Assembly: GCA_009881125.1 (NCBI GenBank)
Contig: WXFH01000296.1
Coordinates: 1 to 23,413, forward strand
Source: Acidaminobacter sp.
GTDB taxonomy: Bacteria; Bacillota_A; Clostridia; Peptostreptococcales; Acidaminobacteraceae
Length of the DNA stretch: 23,413 bases
Reading direction: 5' to 3'
Within the stretch, counting starts at the first letter, position 1; each line of letters opens with the position of its first letter. Shown one piece after another: positions 4,960 through 23,413 of the stretch. The notes below the pieces were generated by a model. The model was not told the origin of the DNA, made no database searches, and saw only the letters and a list, made by a program, of their open reading frames with translations. A program made the position numbers and the translations under genes.

Positions 4960-4975
4960 TGGCACAAACCTTGCT
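4960..4975 (+). promoter_or_regulatory. Sigma-54 (-24/-12) promoter for the UroD-like/TRAP operon
   Basis: TGGCAC-AAACC-TTGCT closely matches the TGGCAC-N5-TTGCW consensus, with the invariant GG and GC separated by exactly 10 bases. Transcription should start near 4986, about 23 bases before the ATG at 5009. The sigma-54 activator encoded at 2558-4255 is the obvious candidate regulator. Confidence 0.88.
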
Positions 4976-6178: not shown

Positions 6179-6203
6179 TAAAAACAATCAGGGAGGAAAT
6201 TTA

Positions 6204-7388: not shown

Positions 7389-8042
7389 ATGTCATCTTTA
7401 AAAAGAATACTTAAATGGCTCGATATCAATTTGGAACCGCTGTTTATCATGGTAATATTTATAGTCATGACTTGTCTGATTACTATCCAGGTTATTAAGC
7501 GTTTCATTTACGGTTCGGGTTTTGCCTGGGGAGAAGAGTTTTCGGTATTTATGTTTGTTTGGATTGTTTTCTTGGGAATTTCCTATGCGTTCCGAAATAA
7601 TCGACAAATCGGTGTCGACTTCCTTCGCGATAGTCTCCCTGAAAAACTTAGAAAAATTTTAGTGGTTGCAGTTGAAATTTCAATGCTGGTTTTGATGTGC
7701 GTTTTCCTGTCCGGAGCAATAGCCAATGTGCAAGCGGTAGCAAAATTTGGAGATAAGGTTCAATCTGTTCCGATCAGCCTCAACGTCTTATACTTTGCAG
7801 CGGTCACAGGGTATACCTTATCCCTCGTTCGGCTGATTCAATCAATTATATGGAAGATCAAGCGGTTTAACGCTTCTTATGAATTGTTTTTGAATCGAGG
7901 AGGACTGTATTCCGGGGCGAGTGATATATTTTTTATGCCACTCGAATACAAAGAAGCTATGGATTCGAAACTTATCTCAGAGCTGGTCGAAGAAGAAGCT
8001 ATGGGATTGTATAAAAAGAAAAGGGGAGGTGCATCACTTTGA
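7389..8042 (+). CDS. TRAP transporter small permease (DctQ family)
   Basis: Small membrane subunit of the TRAP transporter, 217 residues. Four hydrophobic segments lie at about 18-36, 50-69, 90-112 and 131-152. The FAWGEEFSVFMFVW segment near 45 is characteristic of DctQ. The protein has an unusual charged C-terminal tail of about 60 residues (156-217) beyond the last membrane helix. The ATG follows a GGGGG ribosome binding site. Its stop overlaps the TTG start of the large permease gene, so translation is coupled and the two subunits should be made in equal amounts. It pairs with the receptor encoded just upstream. Confidence 0.9.
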   Translation: MSSLKRILKWLDINLEPLFIMVIFIVMTCLITIQVIKRFIYGSGFAWGEEFSVFMFVWIVFLGISYAFRNNRQIGVDFLRDSLPEKLRKILVVAVEISMLVLMCVFLSGAIANVQAVAKFGDKVQSVPISLNVLYFAAVTGYTLSLVRLIQSIIWKIKRFNASYELFLNRGGLYSGASDIFFMPLEYKEAMDSKLISELVEEEAMGLYKKKRGGASL

Positions 8043-9325
8043 TCGCAACCTTATTTGTCACCTTTCTGACCCTCCTCGTCCTCTCTTTTCCAATTGCGGC
8101 AGCGCAATCCATTGCATCGGTACTGCTTATTTTCAGCGATGATCCACTCTCCATAGAGAGCTATACAAAAGCAATTGTTTCCGGATTCAACTCGTTTCCA
8201 TTGGTTGCCATTCCGCTGTTCACTTTCGCCGGCGACATAATGGGCAAAGGCGGTATTTCAAAACGGTTGATCAATACATCGAAAATATTTTTAGGAAATG
8301 TAACGGGTGGACTTGGCATTGTATCCGTCGTCGCCTGCATGATATTCGCAGCGATCTCCGGCACCGGTTCTGCAACCGTGGCTGCTATAGGACTGATAAT
8401 GGTGCCCGAAATGGTAAAAGCCGGGTATGATCGAGCCTACAGCGCGTCCTTGGTAGCTACGGCAGGGACTATTGGAACAATTATTCCTCCGAGTATTTGT
8501 ATGGTCGTTTATGCCATAGCAGCCGGAACGTCAGTTACTGCAATGTTTACAGCCGGTTTCCCGGTGGGAATTATTGTTGGAACAGCACTTTGCATTTACA
8601 CTTACATATCCAGCAAAAAGAATGGCTACAAGCCAGTGATCATTCGTTATACTTTTAAGGAGATCATTGGGATCTTTATAGATGCCATTCCTTCTTTTGC
8701 TGTTCCACTCATTGTACTTGGCGGAATCTATGGCGGCGTGTTTACACCAACGGAAGCGGCCGCGGCAGGATGCTTCCTGGGCGTTCTGATCAGTGTCTTA
8801 ATCTATAAGGAAGTCAAGATTTCCGAGATTCCTTATCTTGCTTTTCGTTCGGTTTACATCAGTTCGCCGGTCATGTTTATCATTGGTGTCTCCACCGGAT
8901 TTGGCAGACTTCTTGCTATTACGCAAATGCCTATCAAAATAGCGGATTTGATCCTGAGCATTACTTCAAGTACAATTTTGCTGATGTTATTGATTAACGT
9001 GCTGCTCCTGATCGTTGGAACCTTCATGGAAACCAATGCAGCCATCATTATTTTAACGCCTATTCTTTTGCCGATGGTTACCGCAATTGGCATCAACCCT
9101 GTTCACTTTGGCATGGTGATGATTTTAAACCTCGCGATTGGCTTTGTCACTCCTCCGGTAGGTGCGAACTTGTTCATGGCAAGCGAAATCTCGCGGGTTC
9201 GGTTTGACATACTGGCAAAAACCATTTGGCCTTGGGTATTTGTAATGGTATGTGTCTTAATGCTGATCACTTATGTACCTGAAATTTCACTCTTCTTACC
9301 AAGAATGCTGGGCATCAGAATTTAA
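8039..9325 (+). CDS. TRAP transporter large permease (DctM family)
   Basis: Large membrane subunit, 428 residues, which carries out ion-driven uptake of the acid delivered by the receptor. It has many hydrophobic helices across its length and DctM landmarks: FPLVAIPLFTFAGDIMGKGG near 52, a Gly/Ala/Ser-rich AAISGTGSATVAAIG helix near 103, GTIIPPSICMVVYA near 145, and FVTPPVGANLFMAS near 366. The start is TTG 8039, which overlaps the DctQ stop and is placed by GGGGAGGT at 8023-8030. It is the last gene of the first sigma-54 operon, followed by a strong terminator. Confidence 0.93.
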   Translation: MIATLFVTFLTLLVLSFPIAAAQSIASVLLIFSDDPLSIESYTKAIVSGFNSFPLVAIPLFTFAGDIMGKGGISKRLINTSKIFLGNVTGGLGIVSVVACMIFAAISGTGSATVAAIGLIMVPEMVKAGYDRAYSASLVATAGTIGTIIPPSICMVVYAIAAGTSVTAMFTAGFPVGIIVGTALCIYTYISSKKNGYKPVIIRYTFKEIIGIFIDAIPSFAVPLIVLGGIYGGVFTPTEAAAAGCFLGVLISVLIYKEVKISEIPYLAFRSVYISSPVMFIIGVSTGFGRLLAITQMPIKIADLILSITSSTILLMLLINVLLLIVGTFMETNAAIIILTPILLPMVTAIGINPVHFGMVMILNLAIGFVTPPVGANLFMASEISRVRFDILAKTIWPWVFVMVCVLMLITYVPEISLFLPRMLGIRI

Positions 9326-9623: not shown

Positions 9624-9687
9624 ATTTATATAGTTAGTCAGAAAGTTGTGGTTTATCAAAAAACGAAAATTGAAAGGTGGAACTAAT

Positions 9688-10500
9688 ATGCCAGGACAAA
9701 ACTCTCATTGGTGGCAATACAAAAGTTGGAACGAAATAGTTGATCATGCCAAAGAATGCGATATCGCAATTATTCCTCTAGGATCTATTGAACAACACGG
9801 GCATCACTTGCCAACCGGACATGACACACTTCAATTGTTCCCAATGCTTGAAAGAATCGCCGAGCAAACCGGTGCTATTCTGATGCCTTGCCCGTGGTAT
9901 GGCGCTCATCCGCATCATCACTGGAATTTTCCTGGAACAGTACCACTTTCAAATGATACTTGTAAAGCGATGATCAAAGACATTGTCAGAGGTGCTGCTG
10001 TAGCGGGCTTCAATAAATTTATTTTATTCTTTGGACATGGCCAGGCATTTGTAACCAATTATACAGTTCAGGATCTTGGTCAGGAAGGCTTTTATGTGTT
10101 GTCAGTCATGTTTCAGAACTCTGTCAGAGATGTGCATGATGAGATTTTCGAGACGCCATTCTGGCATGCGGATGAAGCCGAAACCTCCATTGCACTTTCG
10201 CTGTTCCCGGAATACACAGATATGAGCAAAGCCGTTGTAGAATATGCGACGCCGCTTCTTAGCAGAGAATTCCTTACGGGGCCAACTCAAATGACGTCTT
10301 CAAAACCTCTTAGATTTGATGAAGGCACAGTCAGCGCTCCTGAATACAAGGATCTAAAAATTGGCGTTGTTGGGGATCCTACTCTAGCTACAAAAGAAAA
10401 AGGAGATAAATACGTCGATGCCATTGTTGAGAGAATGGTCAACCTGGTAAACAGTATTAAAAAAGACTACCCTGCTGGTGTCAAGATTGAAACCAACTAG
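9688..10500 (+). CDS. Creatininase-family metal-dependent amidohydrolase
   Basis: Member of the creatininase (creatinine amidohydrolase) fold, 270 residues, whose known members hydrolyse cyclic or linear amides with divalent metal ions. The metal site is visible as GSIEQHGHHLPTGHD (E35, H37, D46), GHG with H117, and HADEAETS (160-167, E165). The usual HAGxxET reads HAD here, and the usual NGHGGN reads FGHGQA, so the pocket differs from creatininase itself. The start ATG 9688 follows AAAGGTGG. As first gene of a carbon-catabolic operon without a creatinase gene, it probably opens a lactam, lactone or amide in another substrate. The exact reaction is unknown. Confidence 0.85.
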   Translation: MPGQNSHWWQYKSWNEIVDHAKECDIAIIPLGSIEQHGHHLPTGHDTLQLFPMLERIAEQTGAILMPCPWYGAHPHHHWNFPGTVPLSNDTCKAMIKDIVRGAAVAGFNKFILFFGHGQAFVTNYTVQDLGQEGFYVLSVMFQNSVRDVHDEIFETPFWHADEAETSIALSLFPEYTDMSKAVVEYATPLLSREFLTGPTQMTSSKPLRFDEGTVSAPEYKDLKIGVVGDPTLATKEKGDKYVDAIVERMVNLVNSIKKDYPAGVKIETN

Positions 10501-10547
10501 TGTTTACAGAACGCCGGTATCACTTAGGGAAATAAGGGGTAATGTGC

Positions 10548-11312
10548 ATGATTAGGAAAAATAAGCTAAAGCAGCTGATCAAGGATGGCGGCTTTGCCAT
10601 CGGAACCTTTGTTAAGTCAAATGATCCTGCGGTTGCGGAGATTCTGGGTTTTTCCGGGCTGGATTTCATAGTTCTGGACAATGAGCACGTTGCAATGAGT
10701 CGAGACAGCATGATTAATATGATTCGCAGCGCGGATTCAACAGGCATTGTTCCAATAGTAAGAGTCAGAGAAAACAGGCCTGTAGAAATATTACAGGCCT
10801 TGGATTCCGGGGCATTGGGAGTTCAGGTTCCAAATGTGGATACAAAAGAAGAAGCCGCTGCTTTGATTGAGAGTGTCAAATATAATCCCATCGGCAAAAG
10901 AGGCTTTTCTCCAACTACTCGCGCAGCTGCCTACGGTTTGATGGACAAGAAAGAGTATGTGGCATTGTCCAATCAAGAAACGCTTGTAGTCGCGCACTGT
11001 GAAACGACAACTTGTATGGAGAACCTGGATGAAATTTTAACGCTGGACTACCTGGATGTCATCTTCATTGGTCCAATGGATTTATCTCAGTCTCTTGGTG
11101 TCATGGGTGAGGCCAACCATCCAAAAGTTATTGAAAGTATTGAGATGATCATTAAGAAAGTTCTTGGTGCGGGCAAAGCGGTGGGCATTGTTTCAAGCCC
11201 GGCACAGGCTAATGATTATATTGCAAAAGGCGTCCAATATTTACTGATCAGCACGGATCAAGGCATGATTGCTTCAGCGGCTCAAAAGATCGCGGCAGAT
11301 CTCAAGAAATAA
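10548..11312 (+). CDS. HpcH/HpaI-family class II aldolase
   Basis: Metal-dependent aldolase of the HpcH/HpaI family, which cleaves 2-oxo-4-hydroxy acids to pyruvate (or a related oxo acid) and an aldehyde. Landmarks are H47 in the DNEH segment, R72 in VRVRE, the GVQVPNV strand near 91, metal ligand E152 in the CET motif, and D178 in GPMDLS. The length of 254 residues is normal for the family. The ATG at 10548 is preferred over ATG 10542 because AAGGGG ends at 10539, which leaves a better spacer. The aldehyde product would be a natural substrate for the AOR or the GAPDH-like enzyme encoded in the same operon. The specific substrate is unknown. Confidence 0.9.
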   Translation: MIRKNKLKQLIKDGGFAIGTFVKSNDPAVAEILGFSGLDFIVLDNEHVAMSRDSMINMIRSADSTGIVPIVRVRENRPVEILQALDSGALGVQVPNVDTKEEAAALIESVKYNPIGKRGFSPTTRAAAYGLMDKKEYVALSNQETLVVAHCETTTCMENLDEILTLDYLDVIFIGPMDLSQSLGVMGEANHPKVIESIEMIIKKVLGAGKAVGIVSSPAQANDYIAKGVQYLLISTDQGMIASAAQKIAADLKK

Positions 11313-11350: not shown

Positions 11351-12322
11351 TTGTATAAGGTATTCCTGACAGAACCGATTCATCCGGACGGCATTGAGCT
11401 TTTGGAAACTGTAGCAGAAGTTGTCCGTGGAACGTCAGTGGAAGCGCAGACTATTGTGAAGGAAGCTCAGGACTGCGACGCCATGCTTGTACGTTCGGCT
11501 TATGTAACCAGCGAGATGATGGCGGCACTTCCAAAACTCAAAATTGTCGCAAAACACGGTATTGGTGTAGACAACATTGATGTTGAGGCGGCGACGCAAA
11601 GCGGGATTATGGTTGTGAATGCACCGGAGGCAAATATTAATGCGGTCGCAGAGCATGCCTTTGCACTGATTATGGCACTTTCAAAGAACTTATTGTTTTT
11701 AGACCGTAATTTGCGAAACGGCGACTTCAAAGCAAGAAACAAGTACCCTTGCACTGAAATCAAAGGCAAAGTTATAGGCTTGATTGGTCTGGGGCGCATA
11801 TCAAAGTTGCTGGCTATGAAGATTAAATCCCTGGATGTTCGAGTGATCGCCTATGATCCGTTTGTTTCAGAAGACAGCAGAGCCTTTGCATCCTCTGAGG
11901 GGATTGATCTCGTTGAAACCTTGGATGAAATTTTAACCCTCTCAGATCTTGTTTCGATTCATGTTCCGCTGACGAATGACACCAGAGGGATGTTTGACAA
12001 AGCGGCATTGTCGAAAATGAAGTCCGAATCTTATCTGATCAATGTAGCTCGCGGTCATATAGTGGATGAGGACGCATTATATGAGGCGCTAAAGAATCAA
12101 AAGATTAAAGGTGCGGCACTGGACGTATTCGCTGAAGAGCCGCCGGCAAAAGATCACCCGTTGTTTCAGCTTGATAATATCATTGTTTCCCCGCATAACG
12201 CAGCATTGACCCACGAGGCACTCTGTGCTATGGCAACTCACTCTGCTCAAGGTATTGTTGAGTTTCTGTCAAATAGGGAACCAAGGAATATAGTAAATCG
12301 AAATGTTTTAAAAACTCCTTAA
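11351..12322 (+). CDS. D-2-hydroxyacid dehydrogenase (3-phosphoglycerate dehydrogenase-like)
   Basis: NAD-dependent 2-hydroxyacid dehydrogenase of 323 residues, the short form without the ACT/ASB regulatory domains. The catalytic set is present: R234 in NVARG, E263 in AEEPP and H282 in SPHNA. The nucleotide loop GLIGLGRIS (143-151) has Ser where the last Gly of GxGxxG is usual, and D169 after the second strand favours NAD over NADP. TTG 11351 is the start, 8 bases after AAAAGGGG. In this operon it would interconvert a 2-hydroxy and a 2-oxo acid, for example before the aldolase step. Serine biosynthesis is unlikely because no serB or serC neighbour is present. Confidence 0.88.
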   Translation: MYKVFLTEPIHPDGIELLETVAEVVRGTSVEAQTIVKEAQDCDAMLVRSAYVTSEMMAALPKLKIVAKHGIGVDNIDVEAATQSGIMVVNAPEANINAVAEHAFALIMALSKNLLFLDRNLRNGDFKARNKYPCTEIKGKVIGLIGLGRISKLLAMKIKSLDVRVIAYDPFVSEDSRAFASSEGIDLVETLDEILTLSDLVSIHVPLTNDTRGMFDKAALSKMKSESYLINVARGHIVDEDALYEALKNQKIKGAALDVFAEEPPAKDHPLFQLDNIIVSPHNAALTHEALCAMATHSAQGIVEFLSNREPRNIVNRNVLKTP

Positions 12323-12351: not shown

Positions 12352-14250
12352 ATGGAAAACATGATAATTCCTCCATTGAAGGATGGCAGAAAGCTATTAA
12401 GAGTTAATCTGACTACTGGTGAAGTCAAGACTGAAATGATAGCAGAAAGAATTCTCAGACGCTATTATGGCGGCGGTGCACTGGCGACTTACTTCTTGCT
12501 CAATGAACTGAAACCGGGCATCGATCCGCTGGGTGAAGAAAATCTATTGGTTATTACCTGCAGCGTTTTGACTGGAACTTTAATCCCGGGCGCATCCAGA
12601 TATACTATAGCCTCCAAATCACCATTGACGAATGGGTTTGCGGAATCAGAGGCGGGCGGATTTTGGGGTCCTCAACTCGCAAAAGCCGGATACATTGGGA
12701 TCATCATTTCAGGTGTTTCTGAAAAACCTGTTTACTTATGGATTCACAACGAAAAGGTCGAGATTAGAGACGCATCCCATCTGACGGGGAAATCCACAGG
12801 TGAAGTAGAAGGGCTGATTCGCGAAGAGCTGGGTGACAACAAAATTGTCATAGCCCAGACCGGCCCGGCAGGTGAAAAGCTGGTCAAATATGCTTGTGTG
12901 TTAAACAATCTAAAACATGCCAACGGAAGAACGGGCATGGGCGCAGTCTTTGGCTCAAAGAAGCTCAGAGGGATCGCGGTGCGTGGAACTTTGGATATGC
13001 CGGTCGCAAATCCTGATGCAGTGAAGGAACACGTCAAATGGTTCGGCGAAAACTGGAAAAACAACACTAGTAATGTTCGCTTGAATAAATATGGAACGGC
13101 GCATTCCATCTCGGGCCTTCAAAACACAGGGACACTCCCTAGCTATAACTGGAGAGACGGTGAATTTAAAGACGCAGAAAAGTTCTATGGTGAAACCATG
13201 ACGGACACCATTTTGCTTAAAAATGAAGGCTGCTATGCTTGTCCTGTCAGATGCAAACGGGTCGTCAGCGGTACGGAATATAACGTGGACCCAATTTATG
13301 GCGGACCTGAATATGAGACGATTGGTGGATTTGGTTCAATTTGCGGCATCTCCGATCTCCCGGCAATATCAAAGGCTCATGAAATGTGCAATGCAGTCGG
13401 TTTGGATACGGTATCTACCTCGGTTGCAATTGGCTTTGCAATGGAATGCTATGAAAAGGGCATCATAACCGACAAAGATACAAATGGCGTAAAGCTCGAC
13501 TGGGGCAATATAGAGTCTATGCTGAAGATGATCGACATGATCGCCAACGGCGAAGCAATAGGCAAACTTCTGGGAGAAGGCGTTGCAAAAGCTGCGAAAG
13601 TACTGGGACATGACAGTGATAAATTCGCTATGGAAGTAAAAGGACAAGAATTCGCGGCTCATGATCCGAGAGGTAAAACAGGCGTTGGTTTAGGCTTCGC
13701 CATTTCTCCAACAGGTGCGGATCATCTTGAAATCGCTCATGACGGTGGATTTGCGGACTACACGATTGCGCTCGAAAACGTTGCGCCAATTGGAATTCAC
13801 GAGCCTGTAGACATGGTTGCGCTGACAAATGAGAAATTGAGGCTGTTTTACAAACTTCAACAGGTCTGCAGTCTAAATAACAGCACTGGGATGTGTAATC
13901 TTGTCATGGCACCCGCATTTACCTTCCCGTTTGATAAATTTATTGAGGTCGTCGGAGCTGTTACCGGCTGGAGAATTAGCATGTATGAGCTTATGATGCT
14001 TGGTGAAAGAGCCAACAACATGGCAAGGTGCTTCAATGTCAGAGAAGGCTTTACCGCTGCGGATGACCGACTCCCTGAACGCTGCTTTGAGCCACTTGGA
14101 AACGGTGCAAGAAAAGGACAGTTTCTTGATAAGCAAGAATTCAGAAGCTTTATTGATAACTATTACAGCATTTGTGGCTGGGACACAGAAGGTGTTCCAA
14201 CACCTGCAAAACTTATCGAACTTGAACTGGAATGGATTAAGTTGTCATAA
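12352..14250 (+). CDS. Tungsten-type aldehyde:ferredoxin oxidoreductase (AOR family)
   Basis: Oxidises an aldehyde to a carboxylic acid with ferredoxin as electron acceptor, using a bis-pterin tungsten (or molybdenum) cofactor and one 4Fe-4S cluster; cytoplasmic. The 632 residues cover the whole family length. The cluster cysteines appear as C294-x2-C297-x3-C301 and C515 (STGMCNL). Other landmarks are YYGGGALATYFL near 38, the pterin-binding region NGRTGMGAVFGSKKLRGIAV (191-210), HDPRGKTG near 437 and GADHLEIAHDGG near 455. ATG 12352 follows an AGCGAGG site. The MoaD-like protein encoded at 4481-4708 may support its cofactor. Its operon position suggests that it acts on the aldolase or isomerase aldehyde product rather than as a general detoxifier. 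Confidence 0.93.
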   Translation: MENMIIPPLKDGRKLLRVNLTTGEVKTEMIAERILRRYYGGGALATYFLLNELKPGIDPLGEENLLVITCSVLTGTLIPGASRYTIASKSPLTNGFAESEAGGFWGPQLAKAGYIGIIISGVSEKPVYLWIHNEKVEIRDASHLTGKSTGEVEGLIREELGDNKIVIAQTGPAGEKLVKYACVLNNLKHANGRTGMGAVFGSKKLRGIAVRGTLDMPVANPDAVKEHVKWFGENWKNNTSNVRLNKYGTAHSISGLQNTGTLPSYNWRDGEFKDAEKFYGETMTDTILLKNEGCYACPVRCKRVVSGTEYNVDPIYGGPEYETIGGFGSICGISDLPAISKAHEMCNAVGLDTVSTSVAIGFAMECYEKGIITDKDTNGVKLDWGNIESMLKMIDMIANGEAIGKLLGEGVAKAAKVLGHDSDKFAMEVKGQEFAAHDPRGKTGVGLGFAISPTGADHLEIAHDGGFADYTIALENVAPIGIHEPVDMVALTNEKLRLFYKLQQVCSLNNSTGMCNLVMAPAFTFPFDKFIEVVGAVTGWRISMYELMMLGERANNMARCFNVREGFTAADDRLPERCFEPLGNGARKGQFLDKQEFRSFIDNYYSICGWDTEGVPTPAKLIELELEWIKLS

Positions 14251-14297: not shown

Positions 14298-15152
14298 GTG
14301 AATGAGCATACCAGCTTGCATAGGTTTAAAGGCGAGGCGCAGTATGAACGCGTTATTACTTCAGAAAACTCAAAGTTAAAATTCATGGGCTTTGACAGGG
14401 TTCTTCTCAAAGCAGGCGAAGCAATGGAACGAGACATTGTCGGTGAAGAAATCGTACTTGTTTTAATCGAAGGCGACATGACGATCTCTGTAGAGTGGAA
14501 CGGCGAAACTCACATCAACAATCGGCAGGGCGTTCGTAAAAGTGTTTACAAAGAGCGGCCTTATGCGGTTTATATGCCGCCGGGAAGCAAAATGACCCTG
14601 AGTACGGAAGGGGGCGTGGAGGCCAGAATCTTCTGCGCACCATGTGAAGAAGGCAATCCTCCTTATTTCTGTACCCCTGACAATGTGGATGAAGGCACGC
14701 CGGGCGCCATGAATATGAAGAGGAAGTACCGATTTGTCTTTGGACCTCCGGGACAAAACAATGACACAGTTACCAAGAAACTGATTGTTGGAGAGTCCGT
14801 ATCGGTCCCGGGCGGGTGGATTGGATTCCCAGCCCACAGACATGATTATGACACAAAGGATGAAACGGAACTCGAGGAAGTATTTTCCTTCAAAGTTTAT
14901 GGTCCAAGGGGCGGTTATGTCATTCAGCATTCCTATGAGCTTGAGCCTAGATGGGATGAATTCAATGTTATTGAAGATGATCTTTGTGCAGTAGCACTGC
15001 CAAAAGGCTATCATACTTCCATGGCTGTTCCGGGATGTGTTGAATACCTGCTCTGGGGTTTGGCTGGTGACAAAGGCAAAGACTATGTGCTCAAGTTTGA
15101 CCATAGACTTGAGTGGATCAGAGAAGCCGAAAACCTCTTTCCAACGTTTTAA
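14298..15152 (+). CDS. IolB-family (5-deoxy-glucuronate isomerase-like) cupin isomerase
   Basis: Bicupin isomerase of 284 residues strongly resembling IolB, which converts 5-deoxy-glucuronate to 5-dehydro-2-deoxygluconate in inositol catabolism. The C-terminal cupin carries the expected metal ligands: H180 and H182 in PAHRHD, a Glu in the ETELEEV segment (about 193), and H239 in LPKGYH, followed by a WGLAGDKG segment like the IolB end. GTG 14298 follows AAAGAGGT by 8 bases. No other iol gene (iolC, iolD, iolE, iolG or iolJ) is in the window, so the substrate is probably another aldehyde-acid such as a uronate or deoxyuronate. Aldose-ketose isomerisation is the most likely chemistry. Confidence 0.86.
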   Translation: MNEHTSLHRFKGEAQYERVITSENSKLKFMGFDRVLLKAGEAMERDIVGEEIVLVLIEGDMTISVEWNGETHINNRQGVRKSVYKERPYAVYMPPGSKMTLSTEGGVEARIFCAPCEEGNPPYFCTPDNVDEGTPGAMNMKRKYRFVFGPPGQNNDTVTKKLIVGESVSVPGGWIGFPAHRHDYDTKDETELEEVFSFKVYGPRGGYVIQHSYELEPRWDEFNVIEDDLCAVALPKGYHTSMAVPGCVEYLLWGLAGDKGKDYVLKFDHRLEWIREAENLFPTF

Positions 15153-15250
15153 TAAGTGAGAACATCGTCAATTAGTGATTTGGAAACGATTTCGAATACA
15201 AGATGTACACTAGAAGGTCGGATTTTTCATTCCAAGTTGGAGGTCATAGT

Positions 15251-16273
15251 ATGGTTAGAGTTGGTGTAGCAGGTTATGGCGTTATTGGACAGAGATTGGC
15301 TGACGGTATAGCGCTTCAAAAAGATATGGAGCTTGTGGGCGTTGTTGACGTTGCGCCGACCCTGTCAGTAAAGGCGTTGAAAGAGAAAGGCATGCCTTAT
15401 GCCTTTTACGCAGCGACTGAGGAAAGTATTCCAAACCTTGAGAAGCACGGCATTCCTGTCTCCGGAACTATGGAGGACATGCTCAAAAAGGTAGATATCA
15501 TGCTGGACGCTACTGGAGCGGGCATCGGTGCAAAGAATAAGGTTCTCTATGAAAAGTATGGCGTTAAGGCAGTATTTCAAGGCGGAGAAAGCAATAACGT
15601 CGCGGATGTCTTTTTTCACGGTTATGCGAACTATGAAGAAGGATTGGGCAAAAATTTCCTCAAACTGACTTCCTGCAATACAACTGGACTCATCAGAGCC
15701 ATTGATTGTCTGGACAGAAAAGTCGGCATAGAAAAAGTGGCGATTACAATAGTCAGACGCGTCGCTGATCCTGGCGATTACCACAGAGGTCTCACCAATG
15801 CGCTGCAAGTAGATAAGGCGCCAAACCACCAGGCTATTGATTTGATGACGATCATGCCGCATATTGACGCTACCGGTCTGCTGATTCATACACCTGTAAC
15901 ACACGGCCATTTCATTTCAGTTGTAGCAACTCCAAAAGCTGATATGGAGATAGATGAGGTCATTGCAGCATTTTCTGAGCATGATCGCATCAGAGTCGTC
16001 AGCATTGACGAGGGTTTTCTCGGAAACGCGTCTCTTTTCAGATATGCCAGAGATCTTGGAAATCCAAGAGGTGACATGTATGAAATTGCGGTCTGGAGAG
16101 ATACTGTCGTAAAATCCGGAAAAGATATAATGTTTGGCATTCATATCCCTCAAGAGTCGGTCACCATTCCTGAGACGATTGACGCTGTCAGAGCTGCGCT
16201 TGGAATGGAAACGGACAGATTGAAAGCAGTCGGTGAGACGAACAAATATCTGGGGATGGGAGCATGGAAGTAA
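15251..16273 (+). CDS. Archaeal-type (type II) glyceraldehyde-3-phosphate dehydrogenase-like protein
   Basis: Phosphorylating aldehyde dehydrogenase of the archaeal GAPDH class, 340 residues. It has an N-terminal Rossmann loop GYGVIGQR, the catalytic SCNTTGL motif with C142, IVRRVADP (R169, R170), and H218 in THGH, which aligns with the catalytic histidine of archaeal GAPDH. D33 after the second strand suggests NAD. The loop that reads about PSHHGPD in archaeal GAPDH reads PNHQAID here (191-197), so the substrate may not be glyceraldehyde 3-phosphate. ATG 15251 is chosen because GGAGG lies 7 bases upstream. It overlaps the PGK-like gene by 10 bases. Glycolytic bacterial GAPDHs belong to a different class, which makes this a rare find in a Firmicute. 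Confidence 0.88.
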   Translation: MVRVGVAGYGVIGQRLADGIALQKDMELVGVVDVAPTLSVKALKEKGMPYAFYAATEESIPNLEKHGIPVSGTMEDMLKKVDIMLDATGAGIGAKNKVLYEKYGVKAVFQGGESNNVADVFFHGYANYEEGLGKNFLKLTSCNTTGLIRAIDCLDRKVGIEKVAITIVRRVADPGDYHRGLTNALQVDKAPNHQAIDLMTIMPHIDATGLLIHTPVTHGHFISVVATPKADMEIDEVIAAFSEHDRIRVVSIDEGFLGNASLFRYARDLGNPRGDMYEIAVWRDTVVKSGKDIMFGIHIPQESVTIPETIDAVRAALGMETDRLKAVGETNKYLGMGAWK

Positions 16274-17541
16274 ACGATACCTTCAGAATTCAGAGCGTGG
16301 ACGAATTCGATTATGATGGCAAGTTTGTACTGCTTAGAGTGGATATCAACTCGCCTATTGATCCGGTGACAAAAAAAATAGTCAGCGATAATCGAATCAA
16401 AAAGAGCATCCCGACGATTAAAAAAATTCTTTCGAAAAACGCTAAACTGGCAATTATCGCCCACCAAGGTGACACTTTGGATTATCAGAATCTAATCCCG
16501 TTAAACGAGCATGCAGAAAAGCTTTCAGCACTGCTTGGCGTAGAAGTCAAATATATTGATGATGTCGCGGGCCCGGCTGCACAAGCGGCCGTAAAAAATG
16601 TGCAGCCTGGCGAAGTGATTCTCCTTGGAAATCTCAGATATTATACAGAGGAAATTTCCACATTTGAAAACTCTGTGAAGCTAAAACCGGAAGAAATGCT
16701 CCAAACTTATCTGGTTAGAAATTTGGCGCCGTTATTTGATTTTTATGTCAATGATGCTTTCGCTGCGGCTCACAGAAATGCGCCATCTATGGTTGCCTTT
16801 CAGGAATTGCTGCCTACAGCAGGTGGGGAATTGATGGTGCAGGAAGTAAGCGCGCTTCAGAAGTTGATGGAGAAACCTGATAAGCCTTGTATTTTTGTAC
16901 TTGGAGGAGCGAAAATATCGGATGCTTTTGGCATGATGAAACAAGTCTTGTCGAATGGTACGGCGGATAAAATTCTCACCTCTGGCATTACGGGTGAAAT
17001 ATTTCTGCTTGCTCAAGGCATTCGCCTGGGGACGGCAAAAGAAACTTTCATTCGCAAGAGAAATCTGGATGTTTTTATCGAGGACGCAAAGAGATATCTG
17101 GAGGAGTTTCCAGGGAAAATTGAAAGCCCGCGTGACTTATCCTATGAGGTGGATGGACAAAGAGTGACCGTTTCAACAGAGAATCTGCCGATTGATGATG
17201 CACTTTACATGGACATTGGTGAAGCAACGATTTCGAAATATTCCGAAATAATTGACCAAGCCGCAACCATTTTCGTTAATGGTCCTGCGGGTGTGTACGA
17301 GAACGCCATGTTCGAAACCGGCACCAAGGAGATTTGGAAGGCAATTGCGTCCTCAAAAGGGTATTCCGTCATAGGTGGCGGAGATACTGTCAGTGCCGCA
17401 CAGAAATTTATTGACTTAAAGGATATTAATTATGTGTGCACAGCCGGGGGAGCCATGGTGCAGTTTCTATCCGGGGATGAACTTCCTTTAATTGAAGCAA
17501 TGAAAAAAGCTTATGCGAAGAGTCAGAAAACTACGTTATGA
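16264..17541 (+). CDS. Archaeal-type phosphoglycerate kinase-like protein
   Basis: Acyl-phosphate:ADP phosphotransferase of the PGK family, 425 residues, closest in motifs to archaeal PGKs (RVDINSPIDP, with R25, D27 and N29). Other visible sites are R44, H67, R125 in LGNLRYY, H170-R171, GGAKISDAF (214-222), NGPAGVYE (339-346) and the nucleotide loop GGGDT (371-375). Position 70, where archaeal and bacterial PGKs have HQGRPG or SHLGRP, reads HQGDT. The Arg that normally contacts the phosphate end of 3-phosphoglycerate is therefore missing. The gene starts inside the end of the GAPDH-like gene, so the two enzymes are made together and probably act in sequence. It would make ATP from the acyl phosphate formed by its partner. 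Confidence 0.88.
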   Translation: MEVNDTFRIQSVDEFDYDGKFVLLRVDINSPIDPVTKKIVSDNRIKKSIPTIKKILSKNAKLAIIAHQGDTLDYQNLIPLNEHAEKLSALLGVEVKYIDDVAGPAAQAAVKNVQPGEVILLGNLRYYTEEISTFENSVKLKPEEMLQTYLVRNLAPLFDFYVNDAFAAAHRNAPSMVAFQELLPTAGGELMVQEVSALQKLMEKPDKPCIFVLGGAKISDAFGMMKQVLSNGTADKILTSGITGEIFLLAQGIRLGTAKETFIRKRNLDVFIEDAKRYLEEFPGKIESPRDLSYEVDGQRVTVSTENLPIDDALYMDIGEATISKYSEIIDQAATIFVNGPAGVYENAMFETGTKEIWKAIASSKGYSVIGGGDTVSAAQKFIDLKDINYVCTAGGAMVQFLSGDELPLIEAMKKAYAKSQKTTL

Positions 17542-17555
17542 ATGGAGGCTATATC

Positions 17556-18215
17556 TTGAAAAAAAAGGTCGCGGTGATTCATACATTCCTATATTCAGTT
17601 GAAGACCTAAAAAAACTGTTCAGAGAAAAGCTGCCGGAAGTCGAAATGATCAATATCATTGATGACAGTTTGCTTCAAGAAGCACTTTCCAACAAGGGCA
17701 TTACACCGGGGATCATTAAGAGAATTTCCAGATATGCCGTTGAAGCTGAAGCCCTGGGGGTGGACGCGATCTTGAATCAGTGTTCCTCAGTGGGTGAAGC
17801 TGCAGACATTGCTCAAAAAATGATCAATATTCCCTATGTAAAAATTGATCAGCCAATGGCCGAAGAAGCTGTTCGCCTCGGTTCGAAAGTAGCAGTCATA
17901 GCGACGGCTGTTTCTACCATTGAGCCATCATCGCGCCTAGTCGAAAGTATGGCGTTGAAAGCTGGAAAAGAAGTAAAAGTAAGCCGCTGCTTCTGCGAAG
18001 GTGCCTATGAAGCGCTGCTGATTGAAAACAACAGGGAAAAACACAATCAAATTGTCATAGAAACTATTAAAAAGGCAAGTGAAGAAAATGATGTCATTGT
18101 CTTGGCTCAAGGCAGCATGTATCATTTGCTTCCACTGCTTCAAGATATCAAAGTACCTGTTTTGACAAGCCTTGAAACTGGGGTAGAGCAACTGCGCGGC
18201 GTTTTGGGCCTGTAA
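17556..18215 (+). CDS. Asp/Glu racemase-superfamily protein
   Basis: Member of the Asp/Glu/hydantoin racemase superfamily, about 219 residues. The first catalytic cysteine is present as NQCSSVG (C76). At the place of the second cysteine the sequence reads LAQGSM (183-188), a variant typical of a subgroup of these proteins found in carbon-catabolic clusters. A two-cysteine amino-acid racemisation is therefore unlikely; isomerase, decarboxylase or lyase chemistry is possible. TTG 17556 is preferred because GGAGG (17544-17548) precedes it by 7 bases. ATG 17538, overlapping the PGK-like stop, has no ribosome binding site but would add six residues. It is the last gene of the second operon, before a terminator. 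Confidence 0.8.
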   Translation: MKKKVAVIHTFLYSVEDLKKLFREKLPEVEMINIIDDSLLQEALSNKGITPGIIKRISRYAVEAEALGVDAILNQCSSVGEAADIAQKMINIPYVKIDQPMAEEAVRLGSKVAVIATAVSTIEPSSRLVESMALKAGKEVKVSRCFCEGAYEALLIENNREKHNQIVIETIKKASEENDVIVLAQGSMYHLLPLLQDIKVPVLTSLETGVEQLRGVLGL

Positions 18216-18358: not shown

Positions 18359-19531
18359 ATGGATTTTAAATCAGAAGCTGTTCGATTACATAAAGAGTGG
18401 AAAGGGAAAATCGAAGTTATAAGTACGGTTGAAGTGAAAACGAAAGAAGACCTTTCGGTTGCCTATACGCCGGGTGTTGCAGAACCTTGTTTGGAAATTC
18501 AAAAAGACGTCGATTTATCCTATGAATTGACCCGCCGTTGGAATTTGGTCGCGGTCGTCACAGACGGAACAGCTGTCCTCGGACTGGGTGATATTGGACC
18601 TGAAGCGGCTATGCCAGTCATGGAAGGCAAATGCGTCTTATTTAAAACTTTTGGAGATGTTGACGCATTTCCATTATGTATTAGGTCGAAAAGTGTTGAC
18701 GATATTGTCAATACCATCCGCTTGCTCTCTGGCAGCTTTGGCGGAATTAATATTGAAGATATTAGTGCTCCGAGATGTTTTGAGATCGAAAAGAGGCTCA
18801 AGGAAGTATGTGATATACCGATATTCCACGACGATCAACATGGAACCGCAGTCGTCACAGTGGCGGGCCTGTTAAATGCGCTAAAAATTGTCGGTAAGAA
18901 AATCGAAGACATCAAGGTTGTGGTTAATGGCGCAGGTTCTGCCGGGATTGCGGTGACGAAGCTGATGATAAGCCTGGGTTTAAAACATGTGATACTTTGC
19001 GATAGGAAAGGCGCCATAAGCAGGGATCGCGCTGATCTTGACGCAACTAAGCAGGAAATTGCCAATTTAACCAACGAAGAAATGAAAAAAGGATTATTGG
19101 ATGAGGTCATAGCGGGAGCAGATGTATTTGTTGGAGTATCTGCACCGGGTGTTGTTACGCAAGAGATGATCAAATCCATGGCGAAGGACGCCATTGTTTT
19201 TGCAATGTCGAATCCGGTGCCGGAGATTATGCCTAATTTAGCAATAGAGGCAGGCGCTCGTATTGTTGGGACGGGGCGATCTGACTTCCCGAATCAAATC
19301 AATAATGTGCTTGCTTTTCCGGGGATTTTCAGAGGCGCTTTGGATGTAAGAGCATCAGATATCAACGATGAGATGAAGATCGCTGCGGCTATGGCATTGG
19401 CCAATCTGGTTGATCCTGCAGACTTAAATGAAGATTATATAATTCCACTTCCATTTGATTCGCGCGTAGGAGCAGCGGTAGCTGAGGCGGTGTCTGAGGC
19501 AGCAAGAACTTCTGGCGTAGCGCGACTTTAG
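18359..19531 (+). CDS. NAD(P)-dependent malic enzyme
   Basis: Oxidatively decarboxylates L-malate to pyruvate and CO2. At 390 residues it is the short bacterial form without a phosphotransacetylase tail. The catalytic set is visible: Y36 in SVAYTPGV, K91 in VMEGK, metal ligands E133-D134 in NIEDI, D158-D159 in FHDDQHGTA, and the Rossmann loop GAGSAG (191-196). The ATG follows GAAGGTGAG. It sits beyond the operon terminator with no sigma-54 promoter, so it may have its own weak promoter or rely on read-through. It leads a group with the LarA-like and NTF2-like genes. Confidence 0.95.
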   Translation: MDFKSEAVRLHKEWKGKIEVISTVEVKTKEDLSVAYTPGVAEPCLEIQKDVDLSYELTRRWNLVAVVTDGTAVLGLGDIGPEAAMPVMEGKCVLFKTFGDVDAFPLCIRSKSVDDIVNTIRLLSGSFGGINIEDISAPRCFEIEKRLKEVCDIPIFHDDQHGTAVVTVAGLLNALKIVGKKIEDIKVVVNGAGSAGIAVTKLMISLGLKHVILCDRKGAISRDRADLDATKQEIANLTNEEMKKGLLDEVIAGADVFVGVSAPGVVTQEMIKSMAKDAIVFAMSNPVPEIMPNLAIEAGARIVGTGRSDFPNQINNVLAFPGIFRGALDVRASDINDEMKIAAAMALANLVDPADLNEDYIIPLPFDSRVGAAVAEAVSEAARTSGVARL

Positions 19532-19558: not shown

Positions 19559-20815
19559 ATGGAAATATCTGTTGGCTATGGTAAGGGTGATCTCAAATTT
19601 ACTATTGAGGACCAAAATCTATTGGCTAATTTAATTCCCAATAAAATCGAGATTGGCATAAGCGGCGAGGACGAAGTGAGACGCGCGCTCAAGGAACCTA
19701 TTTCATCAAAACCGCTTAGAGAAATTGTAACGGCAGGCGATAAAATCGCAATTGTTACAAGTGATATTACACGACCCATACCAAGTAAAATTGTGTTGCC
19801 GGTTATTATTGAGGAGTTGAATGCAGCAGGTGTTCAAGACTGCGACATTACCATTGTTTTTGCACTGGGAAGCCACAGAAAACACACACAAAATGAAATG
19901 ATTTATTTGGTGGGTGAATCAGTTTATAATAGGATAAAATGCCTTGATCTTGATGTGAAAGACTGTGTCCATCTGGGCAATACGAACCACGGAACCCCTG
20001 TCAGCATATACAGACCCGTCGTTGAAGCAGATAAAAGAATTTGCCTGGGCAATATTGAATTCCACTATTTTGCGGGTTACAGCGGAGGTGCCAAGGCATT
20101 GATGCCTGGCGTTGCGACAAGAGACGCAATTCAAGTCAATCATAGTATGATGGTACTGGATGAGGCTAAAGCAGGTGCGCTGAATACGAATCCGTTAAGA
20201 CGTGACATTGACGAAGTCACCAGCTTTATTTCGATTGATTTTCTGCTCAATGTTGTTCTAAGTGAAAAAAAAGAGATTATCAAGGCTTTTGCTGGTCACC
20301 ATAAGCTTGCCCATGAGGAAGGCTGCCGTTTCCTTGACCGTCTCTATAAGGTGGATATCCCAAGACAGGCGGACATTGTTGTCGTCTCAGCGGGTGGTTA
20401 CCCAAAAGACATCAACGTCTATCAAGCTCAAAAGGCGCTGGATAATGCTAAACACGCCGTTAAGCCGGGTGGGATCATAATACTTGCCGCTTCTTGCAAA
20501 GAAGGATTGGGAGAAGGCGTATTTGAAAAGTGGATGATCCACTCAGAAACATCAAAGGAAATGATTTTTAGAATCCGCGAAAAATTTGAGTTGGGTGGTC
20601 ATAAAGCTGCAGCAATAGCGATGATCCTGGAAAAAGCCAGAATCTTCCTGGTATCTGATCTTGAGGATGATTTTGTCAGGAGTATTTTTCTAGAGCCTTT
20701 TTCAAGTATCGATGATGCGCTCAGCGCTGCTTATGAGTCATTAGGACGAAATGTCGATATTGTCATTATGCCCTATGGCGGGTCAACTTTACCCGCCGTT
20801 TCAGAAGTGATCTAA
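19559..20815 (+). CDS. LarA-like nickel-pincer 2-hydroxyacid racemase
   Basis: Member of the LarA family (DUF2088), enzymes that racemise or epimerise 2-hydroxy acids with the nickel-pincer nucleotide cofactor. The protein is 418 residues. The family residues are in place: D69 and R72 in SDITRP, H106 in ALGSHR, H169 in IEFHYFAGYSGGAK, the cofactor-linked lysine K179, and H195 in VNHSMM. ATG 19559 follows CGGAGG. The cofactor synthesis genes larB, larC and larE are not in the window, so they must be elsewhere. Because malic enzyme is encoded just upstream, malate is a reasonable substrate guess; malate racemases are known in this family. Another hydroxy acid of the pathway is also possible. 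Confidence 0.9.
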   Translation: MEISVGYGKGDLKFTIEDQNLLANLIPNKIEIGISGEDEVRRALKEPISSKPLREIVTAGDKIAIVTSDITRPIPSKIVLPVIIEELNAAGVQDCDITIVFALGSHRKHTQNEMIYLVGESVYNRIKCLDLDVKDCVHLGNTNHGTPVSIYRPVVEADKRICLGNIEFHYFAGYSGGAKALMPGVATRDAIQVNHSMMVLDEAKAGALNTNPLRRDIDEVTSFISIDFLLNVVLSEKKEIIKAFAGHHKLAHEEGCRFLDRLYKVDIPRQADIVVVSAGGYPKDINVYQAQKALDNAKHAVKPGGIIILAASCKEGLGEGVFEKWMIHSETSKEMIFRIREKFELGGHKAAAIAMILEKARIFLVSDLEDDFVRSIFLEPFSSIDDALSAAYESLGRNVDIVIMPYGGSTLPAVSEVI

Positions 20816-20837: not shown

Positions 20838-21854
20838 ATGGGTAAGTATGAGGCTTCAAAAAAATGTGTTTTGAATTATTTTAGCGCACTTGAGAATGCA
20901 GATTCCAAAAGTATTAAAGACGTTCTAGGGTCGTTCATGTGTGAGGATTATAGTTGGAAAGGCGTTTATCCGTTTCGTGAGCAGCAAGGCATTTCTGACG
21001 TCGCTGAGGTGTTCTGGATTCCGCTTACTAAAGCACTGAAGCATATGCAAAGACGCCAGGATATCTTCATTGGAGGTACCAGTGAAATTGACGGTGAAGA
21101 ATGGGTCATGAGCATGGGGCATTTTATGGGGTTGTTTGATTCGGAGTGGCTTGGCATAAGACCGACAGGCAAAATGATCAACCTTAGATATGCGGAGTTC
21201 AATTGTGTTGAAAACGGTTTGATTACTAAAACCGGGATTTTTGTGGACATTATTGGATTTATGCTGCAGGCCGGGATTAATCCGCTTCCGCCGCAAACCG
21301 GAAGCTACTTTGTATATCCTGGTCCAAGAAACCATGATGGCCTGCTGTTTGAAGATGCCCCAGAAGAAGAAGGAATAAAAACACTTGAACTTGTAAATCG
21401 AATGGTAGATGATTTAACAGAGCTAAATAAAAGCGGCGCTATGGGTTGCCCGCCGGAGATCCTAGATAAAACTTGGTCAAAAAATATGATTTGGTATGGT
21501 CCTGCAGGGATTGGCGCCTCCTATACAATTCCTAGATATCAAATACAGCATCAATTGCCATTCAGAAACAATTTGAAAGATAAAACCTTTAATGGTCATG
21601 TCTGTCGATTTGCGGAAGGAAAATTTTCTTGTTTCTTTGGTTGGCCAAACTTATCCAATACACCAACAGGCGGTTTTTTGGGATTGCCTGGAGGCAATGT
21701 AAGGGCTGACATGCAAGTGGTGGATGTTTATTGCCGGGAAGGTGATAAGTTGTCGGAAAACTGGGTTCTGATTGATCTTCCTTACTGGTTGAGCCAGCAA
21801 GGTCTCGATATTATCAAGCGAACGACACAAATTTTCAATCCGGAAGTTTTTTAA
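20838..21854 (+). CDS. Tandem NTF2/SnoaL-like domain protein
   Basis: Protein of 338 residues that appears to contain two NTF2-like (SnoaL/ester cyclase-like) domains, about 8-150 and 185-330, joined by a Pro/Gly-rich linker near 155-175. There is no signal peptide or membrane helix. NTF2-like domains are cone-shaped pockets used by isomerases, cyclases and small-molecule binders, but no catalytic residue can be named here. The fold call rests on general pattern (amphipathic N-terminal helix, the SWKGVYPFREQQG type of strand, repeated W/F-rich strands), not on a close family member. The ATG follows GGAGAGAAGTGG. It is the last plus-strand gene, and its partner is unknown. Confidence 0.6.
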   Translation: MGKYEASKKCVLNYFSALENADSKSIKDVLGSFMCEDYSWKGVYPFREQQGISDVAEVFWIPLTKALKHMQRRQDIFIGGTSEIDGEEWVMSMGHFMGLFDSEWLGIRPTGKMINLRYAEFNCVENGLITKTGIFVDIIGFMLQAGINPLPPQTGSYFVYPGPRNHDGLLFEDAPEEEGIKTLELVNRMVDDLTELNKSGAMGCPPEILDKTWSKNMIWYGPAGIGASYTIPRYQIQHQLPFRNNLKDKTFNGHVCRFAEGKFSCFFGWPNLSNTPTGGFLGLPGGNVRADMQVVDVYCREGDKLSENWVLIDLPYWLSQQGLDIIKRTTQIFNPEVF

Positions 21855-21958: not shown

Positions 21959-22609
21959 TTACTGCATATTTCGTAAGTTTTCAGAAATAATTAAATCCGC
22001 TTCTGTGGCAGCAATAACCTGCTCCACTGTATACTCCGGATTGATTTCTGTTAGAACAAGCCCTTTGTCAGTCACGTTCATGACACCCATTTCTGTAACA
22101 ATAACGTCAACCTCATTTGCCGCTGTTAATGGAAGTGTGCATTGCTTAAGTATTTTAGGCTTTCCTTTTGCAGTGTGTTCCATAGCGATGACAACTTTTT
22201 TTGCGCCGCAGACAAGATCCATTGCGCCGCCCATACCGGGGACGAGTTTACCGGGGATCATCCAGTTTGCCAAGTTGCCATATTGATCCACTTGAAGCGC
22301 ACCTAAGACAGTAGCGTCAATATGGCCGCCGCGAATAATCGCAAATGACATGGCACTGTCAAAAAACGCAGCACCATCCAGAATCGTGGCTGGGACAGCC
22401 CCGGCATTTACGAGATCTTTTATTTCTTCACCTGGCTTTGGCTCTGGTCCCATTCTTATGTAACCATTCTCGCACTGGAAAGATATATCGATACCTTCGG
22501 GAATATAGTTTGCGACCAATATTGGAAGACCTATTCCCAGATTGACTATATCACCGTCCTTGAACTCTTTCGCAACGCGTTTTGCTATAATTGCGCGGAT
22601 ATCACTCAT
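21959..22609 (-). CDS. 3-oxoacid CoA-transferase subunit B (AtoA-like)
   Basis: Beta subunit of a two-component CoA-transferase, 216 residues, which carries the catalytic glutamate that forms the enzyme-CoA thioester. The GIGLP segment near 25 and the CENG motif with E47, followed by MGPEP, mark it as the active-site subunit. Other conserved stretches are [19 protein letters not shown] and [11 protein letters not shown]. It starts 8 bases inside the end of the A subunit gene, so the two are translated together. The CoA acceptor could be acetate, butyrate, acetoacetate or an acid made by the neighbouring pathway; sequence alone does not decide. Confidence 0.93.
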
Positions 22610-23264
22610 TGATTTGACCTCCGTTCACTATGTAATCTACAAATAATCCTGGCGTGACGATGTGGTTAGGATCAATTGAACCAACCTCAACAATGTGATC
22701 TGCTTCAGCGATGACTAAGTCTGCGGCAGTTGCCATAAGCGGATTCATGTTTCTAGCGCTGTTGTTATAGAGTATATTTCCCATATGATCTATTTTGTAT
22801 CCCTTAATAATAGCAACGTCCGCTTTAATAGGAAGCTCGATCAGATACTCTTTATCATTGAGAAAGATTTTTTGCTTGCCGTTTTCAACAAGTGTACCAA
22901 GCCCAACGGGTGTAAGAACGCCGCCCAACCCTGCTCCGGCAGCCCGTATTTGTTCAGCGAGCGTACCTTGTGGAACCAAAACAACCTCGAGTTCTTCAGC
23001 ATTCATTTGTAATCCGGACTGAGGATTTGTTCCAATGTGAGAAGTAATTACTTTTTTGACAAGTTTGTGATTAATTAACTTTCCGCCTCCGATATTGATA
23101 AAACTTGTATCATTTATTATGAGTGTCAAATCTTTGATGTCCTGACGAATGATTTCATCAATGATCGCTTCAGGTGCACCGGTTCCAAGGAATCCTCCAC
23201 ACATAACACTCATGCCGTCTTTGATTTTGGAGACCGCATCTTCTAATGAAATGATTTTTTTCAT
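22602..23264 (-). CDS. 3-oxoacid CoA-transferase subunit A (AtoD-like)
   Basis: Alpha subunit of the same CoA-transferase, 220 residues. The start ATG (complement of 23262-23264) is chosen because GGAGG on the minus strand (about 23271-23276) precedes it; an upstream in-frame ATG at 23336 has no ribosome binding site. The glycine-rich [18 protein letters not shown] segment near the N terminus and the LTPVGLGT stretch match AtoD/ScoA proteins. It is transcribed convergently to the catabolic genes, so it may be a general fermentative function that happens to be adjacent, or a partner that activates a pathway acid. Confidence 0.93.
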
Positions 23265-23303
23265 TTTAAACCTCCAGTGTATTTTCCGTATTGTTAAATA
23301 GTT

Positions 23304-23332
23304 TATATAAAAACTCTTTGAAAGCATTGCAA
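23304..23332 (-). promoter_or_regulatory. Possible sigma-A promoter for the CoA-transferase genes
   Basis: On the minus strand TTGCAA (23327-23332) is separated by 17 bases from TATATA (23304-23309), about 40 bases before the start codon. The spacing is ideal and the -35 hexamer is a fair match. No sigma-54 pattern was found here, unlike the two plus-strand operons. Confidence 0.45.
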
Positions 23333-23413
23333 ACACTTAGTTGCACAAAAAATATAGTGGTACCCCCATTTTGAAGTATAATTGAGTCACCACAACACCA
23401 ATTTTCTTCAAAA

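Follow-up and report, generated by a model that had tools for sequence, protein, structure and literature searches.

The described systems that come closest to the gene pair analyzed here are the type II GAPDHs, phosphoglycerate kinase (PGK), the canonical iol pathway of inositol breakdown and the malate racemases. Functional evidence for bacterial type II GAPDHs had been absent, according to the accessible part of Koendjbiharie et al. (2019; PMC6543838), where the type II GAPDH CDQ83_07070 of Pseudoclostridium thermosuccinogenes was expressed. Neither with NAD nor with NADP did this protein show activity on DHAP plus triosephosphate isomerase in the presence of arsenate; in contrast, the two type I GAPDHs of the organism were active, expression having been checked on gels. 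The assay, performed on crude heated extract as far as the source describes it, is not proof of a different substrate. When translated, the primers given there yield VKVGV and MGKWK, the termini of P0070, a P. thermosuccinogenes member of the same GAPDH family that is 76–77% identical to the GAPDH-like protein studied here. With regard to malate racemases, the portions of the published reports at hand state that malate racemase activity was experimentally demonstrated for LarAH6 (MAR2), that another malate racemase has a Km of 0.21 mM for D-malate, and that these enzymes are the largest group of their superfamily.

We analyzed a DNA stretch of 23,413 nucleotides from Acidaminobacter sp. (contig WXFH01000296.1), hereafter the window. 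Its features are listed in Table 1. A first-pass annotation had described a GAPDH-like and a PGK-like gene overlapping by 10 bases within a catabolic operon; the coordinates (overlap at 16264–16273) and the Pfam and NCBIfam matches confirm it, and the motifs quoted at that time, SCNTTGL and RVDINSPIDP, are found in the GAPDH-like and the PGK-like protein. The aldolase, IolB-like and AOR neighbors that it named are recognized by Pfam as HpcH/HpaI, KduI/IolB-family and aldehyde:ferredoxin oxidoreductase proteins, while the malic enzyme and the LarAH6-type malate racemase were absent from that account. The program list of open reading frames gives 15203–16273 as alternative limits for the GAPDH-like gene; we prefer the start at 15251, because relatives of 340 amino acids align across 100% of the protein from that ATG. 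The closest solved structures by sequence are 2CZC for the GAPDH-like protein (1e-79) and 2CUN, the Pyrococcus horikoshii PGK, for the PGK-like protein (8e-88).

Table 1. Features of the window; positions are those of the whole stretch.
Feature	Position	Strand	Basis or remark
Corrinoid reductive activator (RACo family)	31–2442		At window edge
PAS-domain sigma-54 activator	2558–4255	+	
Sigma-54 −24/−12 consensus, exact	4960–4975	+	Ahead of operon
URO-D-family protein (URO-D/MtaA-like)	5009–6178	+	URO-D-type genes near the pair in Alkalibacter too
TRAP transporter solute-binding protein DctP	6123–7253	+	
TRAP transporter DctQ	7389–8042	+	
TRAP transporter DctM	8039–9325	+	
Creatininase-family hydrolase	9646–10500	+	Nearest NCBIfam model 3-dehydro-scyllo-inosose hydrolase IolN, 175 bits (cut-off 245)
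HpcH/HpaI-type aldolase	10542–11312	+	Pfam; nearest solved chain 1DXE, 2-dehydro-3-deoxygalactarate aldolase
D-2-hydroxyacid dehydrogenase	11351–12322	+	Pfam 2-Hacid_dh
Aldehyde:ferredoxin oxidoreductase	12352–14250	+	Pfam AFOR_N, AFOR_C
KduI/IolB-family isomerase	14298–15152	+	Pfam KduI 163 bits; 140 bits, below IolB equivalog cut-off of 205
Type II GAPDH-family gene	15251–16273	+	Two NCBIfam type II GAPDH models, 406 bits (cut-off 185) and 305 bits (cut-off 233); clade and residue analysis
PGK-family gene, 425 aa	16264–17541	+	Pfam PGK domain (PF00162) 365 bits (cut-off 27); position 65 not basic; clade
Asp/Glu racemase superfamily protein	17538–18215	+	Pfam; 70–81% identity in three related loci
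Malic enzyme, L-malate to pyruvate	18359–19531	+	Pfam malic and Malic_M over cut-off
Nickel-dependent malate racemase, LarAH6 family	19559–20815	+	NF052593 568 bits (cut-off 500)
338-aa protein, 3′ of racemase gene	20838–21854		SnoaL-like stretch, no NCBIfam match
3-Oxoacid/acetate CoA-transferase A and B	21959–23336	−	

The genes from URO-D through TRAP transporter, IolN-like hydrolase, HpcH aldolase, 2-hydroxyacid dehydrogenase, AOR, KduI/IolB isomerase, the pair, Asp/Glu-racemase-like protein and malic enzyme to malate racemase are co-directional, and we infer that they form one transcript. The sigma-54 setting reported earlier was borne out by the activator gene and by one exact −24/−12 site before the operon, where shuffling predicts 0.02 per window; sites with up to two mismatches are not in excess (12 in the window vs 13 by chance). 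The RACo and URO-D/MtaA-like genes may mean that a methyl-transfer step, perhaps the demethylation of an O-methyl compound, is part of the window pathway. At the other end, locus L001 carries its CoA-transferase pair directly after the racemase gene, on the plus strand.

Protein searches, in which 8000 GAPDH and 7998 PGK candidates were scored, yielded 5063 and 6330 relatives; the best 120 of the 5063 are 74–99% identical and the best 120 of the 6330 are 67–95% identical. From a genome scan giving 539 loci we kept the best 80, on which all 80-locus counts are based, and these belong to Clostridia, Spirochaetes, Chloroflexi, Desulfovibrionaceae, Planctomycetaceae, Synergistaceae and a few proteobacterial MAGs. 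Both genes were detected in 67 of 81 sequences (the 80 loci plus the window) and are adjacent in 64 of these 67, the ORF caller having missed the GAPDH gene in 7 of the 80 loci. PGK is the first gene in 14 loci, and an overlap of 10 bases is seen in 16. A length filter before alignment reduced the PGK cluster from 73 to 69 rows and the GAPDH cluster from 74 to 72. In the quick trees then obtained, which carry long-branch warnings, the 72 pair GAPDHs split with support 100 from four archaeal type II enzymes and seven further bacterial ones, and the 69 pair PGKs split with support 99 from three solved PGKs and from the ordinary PGKs encoded in the same genomes (20 sequences); the tree check that the first-pass annotation had proposed thus places both proteins in bacterial clades of their own. 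The pair may have been imported from archaea, as the first-pass annotation had suggested: the PGK clade joins the P. horikoshii enzyme, but this is the only archaeal PGK in the tree and the node is flagged for long-branch risk. The window GAPDH clusters with those of L001, L002, L004, L005, L013, L018, L027, L032 and L040 (support 99), not with those of inositol operons. A second PGK subclade, 42–47% identical to the window PGK and with Ser or Gly at position 65, comprises L043, L050, L053, L057–L061, L064, L067–L072, L076, L078, L079 and L022; in its Treponema loci the gene order is PGK before GAPDH. Further bacterial type II GAPDHs, 35–38% identical, are plasmid-borne (L101, L102, L104), with pfkA as a neighbor in Meiothermus and heavy-metal P-type ATPases as neighbors in Rhodococcus and Paracoccus; the plasmid gene table, which is incomplete, lists no PGK gene within 5 kb of them.

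The alignments show specific changes in both proteins. Position 65 of PGK, part of the 3-phosphoglycerate site (numbering of human PGK, which has Arg65), is basic in none of the 69 pair PGKs (Asp in 50, Ser in 18, Gly in one) and R or K in all 23 others. All 69 retain R38, H62, R122, R170 and K215, and all 69 have Ala in place of K219, a residue that P. horikoshii PGK has also replaced, by Ser. Arg65 presumably contacts the substrate phosphate. It also forms a salt bridge to Asp218 that takes part in domain closure, as stated in the accessible part of a review, and for this reason the loss of a basic residue is not a clean substrate marker. In the GAPDH clade, 17 alignment columns are switched in comparison with the 11 other type II enzymes. 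Asp33 is found in 19 of 19 members, where the archaeal enzymes have Lys (4 of 4), which suggests that the cofactor would be NAD and not NADP.

Ordinary glycolytic enzymes were searched for in 35 genomes holding the pair (those of a hand-picked 36 of the 80 loci, minus L067). An additional full-length ordinary PGK (at least 447 bits) is encoded in 32 of the 35, the exceptions being G011 and G023, with fragments only, and G010, with none; an ordinary GAPDH (at least 158 bits) is encoded in 33, G023 and G031 having none. G002, G003, G018 and G023 contain a further frame of 407–437 amino acids that scores 89–95 bits to the GAPDH C-terminal domain. The first-pass annotation had postulated a dedicated module, from aldehyde to acyl-phosphate to ATP, outside glycolysis, and had named as contrary evidence a host without any other gapA or pgk, or normal activity of both proteins with glyceraldehyde 3-phosphate (G3P) and 3-phosphoglycerate. 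The ordinary genes are retained in the relatives and the published family member is inactive on G3P, findings that, with the separate clades, uphold such a module. Housekeeping glycolysis as the role of the pair was rejected on the ordinary enzymes, the change at position 65 and the G3P inactivity. The pair could also be a second glycolytic GAPDH and PGK, handling G3P and pentose phosphates from the transketolase step; the fold, the catalytic cysteine motif and most residues of the 3-phosphoglycerate site are kept, and plasmids carry further bacterial type II GAPDHs in the vicinity of pfkA or fructose bisphosphate aldolase genes. We consider this improbable: besides the three observations just mentioned, among them an inactivity that, in the accessible text, is set against two active type I enzymes of the same organism, it leaves the malate racemase and the malic enzyme unexplained.

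These two enzymes belong to a recurrent neighborhood. In Clostridia, Spirochaetes and Chloroflexi the pair is often found with iolG/E/D/B, a split transketolase, malate racemase and malic enzyme. At L038 the order is ABC transporter, IolB-type, IolD, IolE, IolG, malic enzyme, LarAH6, GAPDH, PGK, transketolase N half and C half, with scores (cut-offs) of 989 (715) for IolD, 443 (290) for IolE, 497 (355) for IolG and 605 (500) for LarAH6, the IolB-like protein (113 bits) being below the IolB cut-off. Among the best 80 of 539 loci, many of them on short contigs, IolD is present in 31, IolE in 33, both transketolase halves in 26, LarA in 42 and malic enzyme in 22. When only the 32 loci of at least 20 kb are counted, IolB/D/E or transketolase N is present in 20 and LarA or malic enzyme in 24. 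No IolB/D/E or transketolase N gene is nearby in 35 of the 80 loci, in part because contigs are short. Spirochaete LarA proteins score 380–384 bits, under the malate racemase cut-off of 500.

We propose, with a probability of about 0.7, that the GAPDH-like member of the pair is a phosphorylating (R)-malic semialdehyde dehydrogenase and the PGK-like member a malyl-phosphate kinase, (R)-malic semialdehyde being the likeliest substrate. In the route that we infer, with the substrate, direction and stereochemistry of each step, IolG, IolE, IolD and an IolB-type isomerase would convert inositol, the source in the most frequent setting, to 5-dehydro-2-deoxygluconate (DKG), from which the split transketolase would release (R)-malic semialdehyde, standing in for IolC, IolJ and IolA. 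The GAPDH-type enzyme would convert (R)-malic semialdehyde, NAD and phosphate to D-malyl phosphate; the PGK-type enzyme, as a D-malyl-phosphate:ADP phosphotransferase, would then form D-malate and ATP; the LarAH6 racemase would turn D-malate into L-malate, and malic enzyme L-malate into pyruvate. Malic semialdehyde (3-hydroxy-4-oxobutanoate) equals D-glyceraldehyde 3-phosphate in shape, its carboxylate taking the place of the phosphate, and DKG matches D-xylulose 5-phosphate in carbon skeleton and configuration, again with -COO- instead of -OPO3. The configuration of D-gluconate underlies a Fischer-projection check, according to which malic semialdehyde and malate from the transketolase route are both R, as is D-glyceraldehyde, and malic semialdehyde relates to D-glyceraldehyde 3-phosphate as malate does to 3-phosphoglycerate. 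D-Malate as the product would explain why a malate racemase and a malic enzyme are encoded within the same operon. A broader reading has chances that we judge somewhat better than even: a natural malyl-phosphate route to ATP, in which enzymes of the lower pentose-phosphate pathway and glycolysis are reused with carboxylate for phosphate, organized as an exchangeable cassette (GAPDH, PGK, malate racemase, malic enzyme) with several feeders, the main one being IolC-free inositol breakdown. The module is wider than the first-pass annotation supposed.

The relationship with IolC was studied at the genome level, IolC being the one of IolC, IolJ and IolA that the genome searches covered. In the 35 pair genomes, IolD is over cut-off in 24, LarAH6 in 27 and IolC in 4; in 14 control genomes the corresponding numbers are 3, 1 and 3. 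IolC over cut-off is missing in 21 of the 24 pair genomes that bear iolD. Those with both are G003 and G023, in each of which the pair comes with an aminotransferase feeder, and G007, which has two IolC-IolD clusters plus an IolC-free cluster that holds the pair. In gut Clostridia with an isolated pair, the loci (e.g., L047) have no racemase or malic enzyme adjoining it; IolD is encoded elsewhere in G024, G025, G026, G030, G031 and G032, and LarAH6 elsewhere in four of six genomes searched. A less biased sample of 245 genomes of one class contains the pair in 8, IolD in 21 and IolC in 10, with IolD in 7 of the 8 pair genomes. The 21 IolD genomes comprise 9 with IolC only, 7 with the pair only, none with both and 5 with neither (G072, G092, G100, G117 and G128, taking IolC over cut-off). 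In 5 of the 7 genomes with the pair but without IolC, the pair is at most 10 kb from IolD. Fisher tests that ignore kinship give p values of 9e-8 for association of the pair with IolD and 0.007 for exclusion with IolC, and of 2e-6 and 0.03, respectively, after removing the three seed genomes.

Besides the inositol genes, the cassette is accompanied by a class III aminotransferase, a pyruvate-dehydrogenase-like complex, or a dehydrogenase with transketolase. The aminotransferase of L004 (529 bits; GABA-transaminase cut-off 507) adjoins the pair, malic enzyme and malate racemase, and acting on 4-amino-3-hydroxybutyrate it would yield malic semialdehyde. A BLAST cluster places class III aminotransferases in 5 of the 80 loci; because it includes at least one biotin-type enzyme (L021, recognized by eye), we rely on L004, which was scanned. 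An E1/E2/E3 complex accompanies PGK, LarA and GAPDH at L078, and L015 is similar. The second Alkalibacter cluster (L110) combines TRAP genes, a zinc dehydrogenase, an SDR that scores over the D-mannonate oxidoreductase cut-off, the pair, both transketolase halves, LarAH6 and malic enzyme, a set that could oxidize an imported deoxy sugar acid to DKG.

None of the 19 window genes scanned is a transketolase, IolD or IolE; L001 and L002 share with the window the HpcH, 2-hydroxyacid dehydrogenase, IolB-like, Asp/Glu-racemase-like, malic enzyme and LarA genes. The cassette would here be fed by the aldolase/hydrolase/isomerase set, a rare type of feeder, and one idea for a candidate step is an HpaI-type cleavage of 4,5-dihydroxy-2-oxoheptanedioate, which would give pyruvate and malic semialdehyde. 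Compared with solved structures, the window aldolase and IolB-like protein match at family level at best, and the Asp/Glu-racemase-like and URO-D-like proteins have no match; a search for window-type loci with the Asp/Glu-racemase-like protein gave 1e-70 matches in the seed genome only (1 of 345 and 1 of 185). A further explanation is that the substrate is a different short aldehyde acid, such as succinic, malonic or tartronic semialdehyde, or that it varies by operon. GABA would give succinic semialdehyde through the GABA-transaminase-family feeder of L004, and the window HpcH aldolase is nearest to GarL-type enzymes, which yield tartronic semialdehyde. We regard this as rather unlikely, since the GABA-transaminase operons L004 and L032, like the window, have racemase and malic enzyme next to the pair, and since from DKG transketolase can yield malic semialdehyde only.

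The first-pass annotation had also allowed for the pair running backwards, ATP being spent to activate an acid that is then reduced to the aldehyde. In the parent families either reaction can proceed in both directions, as is generally known, but the catabolic setting with its importers and feeders and the downstream racemase and malic enzyme point to oxidation, as does the invariant Asp33 insofar as it suggests NAD; we find this reversal very improbable.

If the pair does oxidize (R)-malic semialdehyde, it would be the first malate-semialdehyde/malate-kinase pair of natural origin and would represent a new substrate-level phosphorylation. Inositol breakdown would then avoid the ATP cost at IolC and gain one ATP at the PGK step, malate racemases would have a metabolic source of D-malate, and many proteins of Clostridia, Spirochaetes and Chloroflexi that are now called "type II GAPDH" or "PGK", those of gut species among them, would be renamed. 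The literature searched, which mostly lies outside subscription journals, yielded no description of the pathway, no assay of pair-type enzymes with malic semialdehyde and no assay of a pair-type PGK.

When compared with known systems, the pair GAPDHs share with archaeal type II GAPDH (TIGR01546, NF003251) the family, the SCNTTG motif and the histidine of the MHxH motif, and differ in their separate clade (72 rows, support 100), the 17 switched columns and the G3P inactivity of the member assayed. The pair PGKs are full-length members of the phosphoglycerate kinase family (PF00162) and have R38, H62, R122, R170 and K215 in common with it, whereas the non-basic position 65, the change of K219 to Ala and the 69-row clade set them apart. 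With the canonical iol pathway (IolG-E-D-B-C-J-A) the pair operons share the IolG, IolE, IolD and IolB-type steps to DKG; they lack IolC and contain instead the split transketolase, the pair, the racemase and malic enzyme. A synthetic malyl-phosphate pathway with an engineered malate kinase likewise has, in the available part of its description, malyl phosphate between malate and the semialdehyde. It is reportedly an engineered, ATP-consuming pathway that uses enzymes of the aspartate pathway and carries the phosphate on the other carboxyl group. As far as the accessible text of PMC11659671 goes, the sulfoglycolytic transketolase pathway (SqwGH) also employs a split transketolase on a ketose with an acid group in place of phosphate, but the group is a sulfonate rather than a carboxylate and there is no GAPDH/PGK step. 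The carnitine route of Acinetobacter baumannii, from carnitine through malic semialdehyde and D-malate to pyruvate, shares the aldehyde and the D-malate product, but uses, in the part of PMC11353897 at hand, a one-step aldehyde dehydrogenase (MSA-DH) without ATP, plus a D-malate dehydrogenase.
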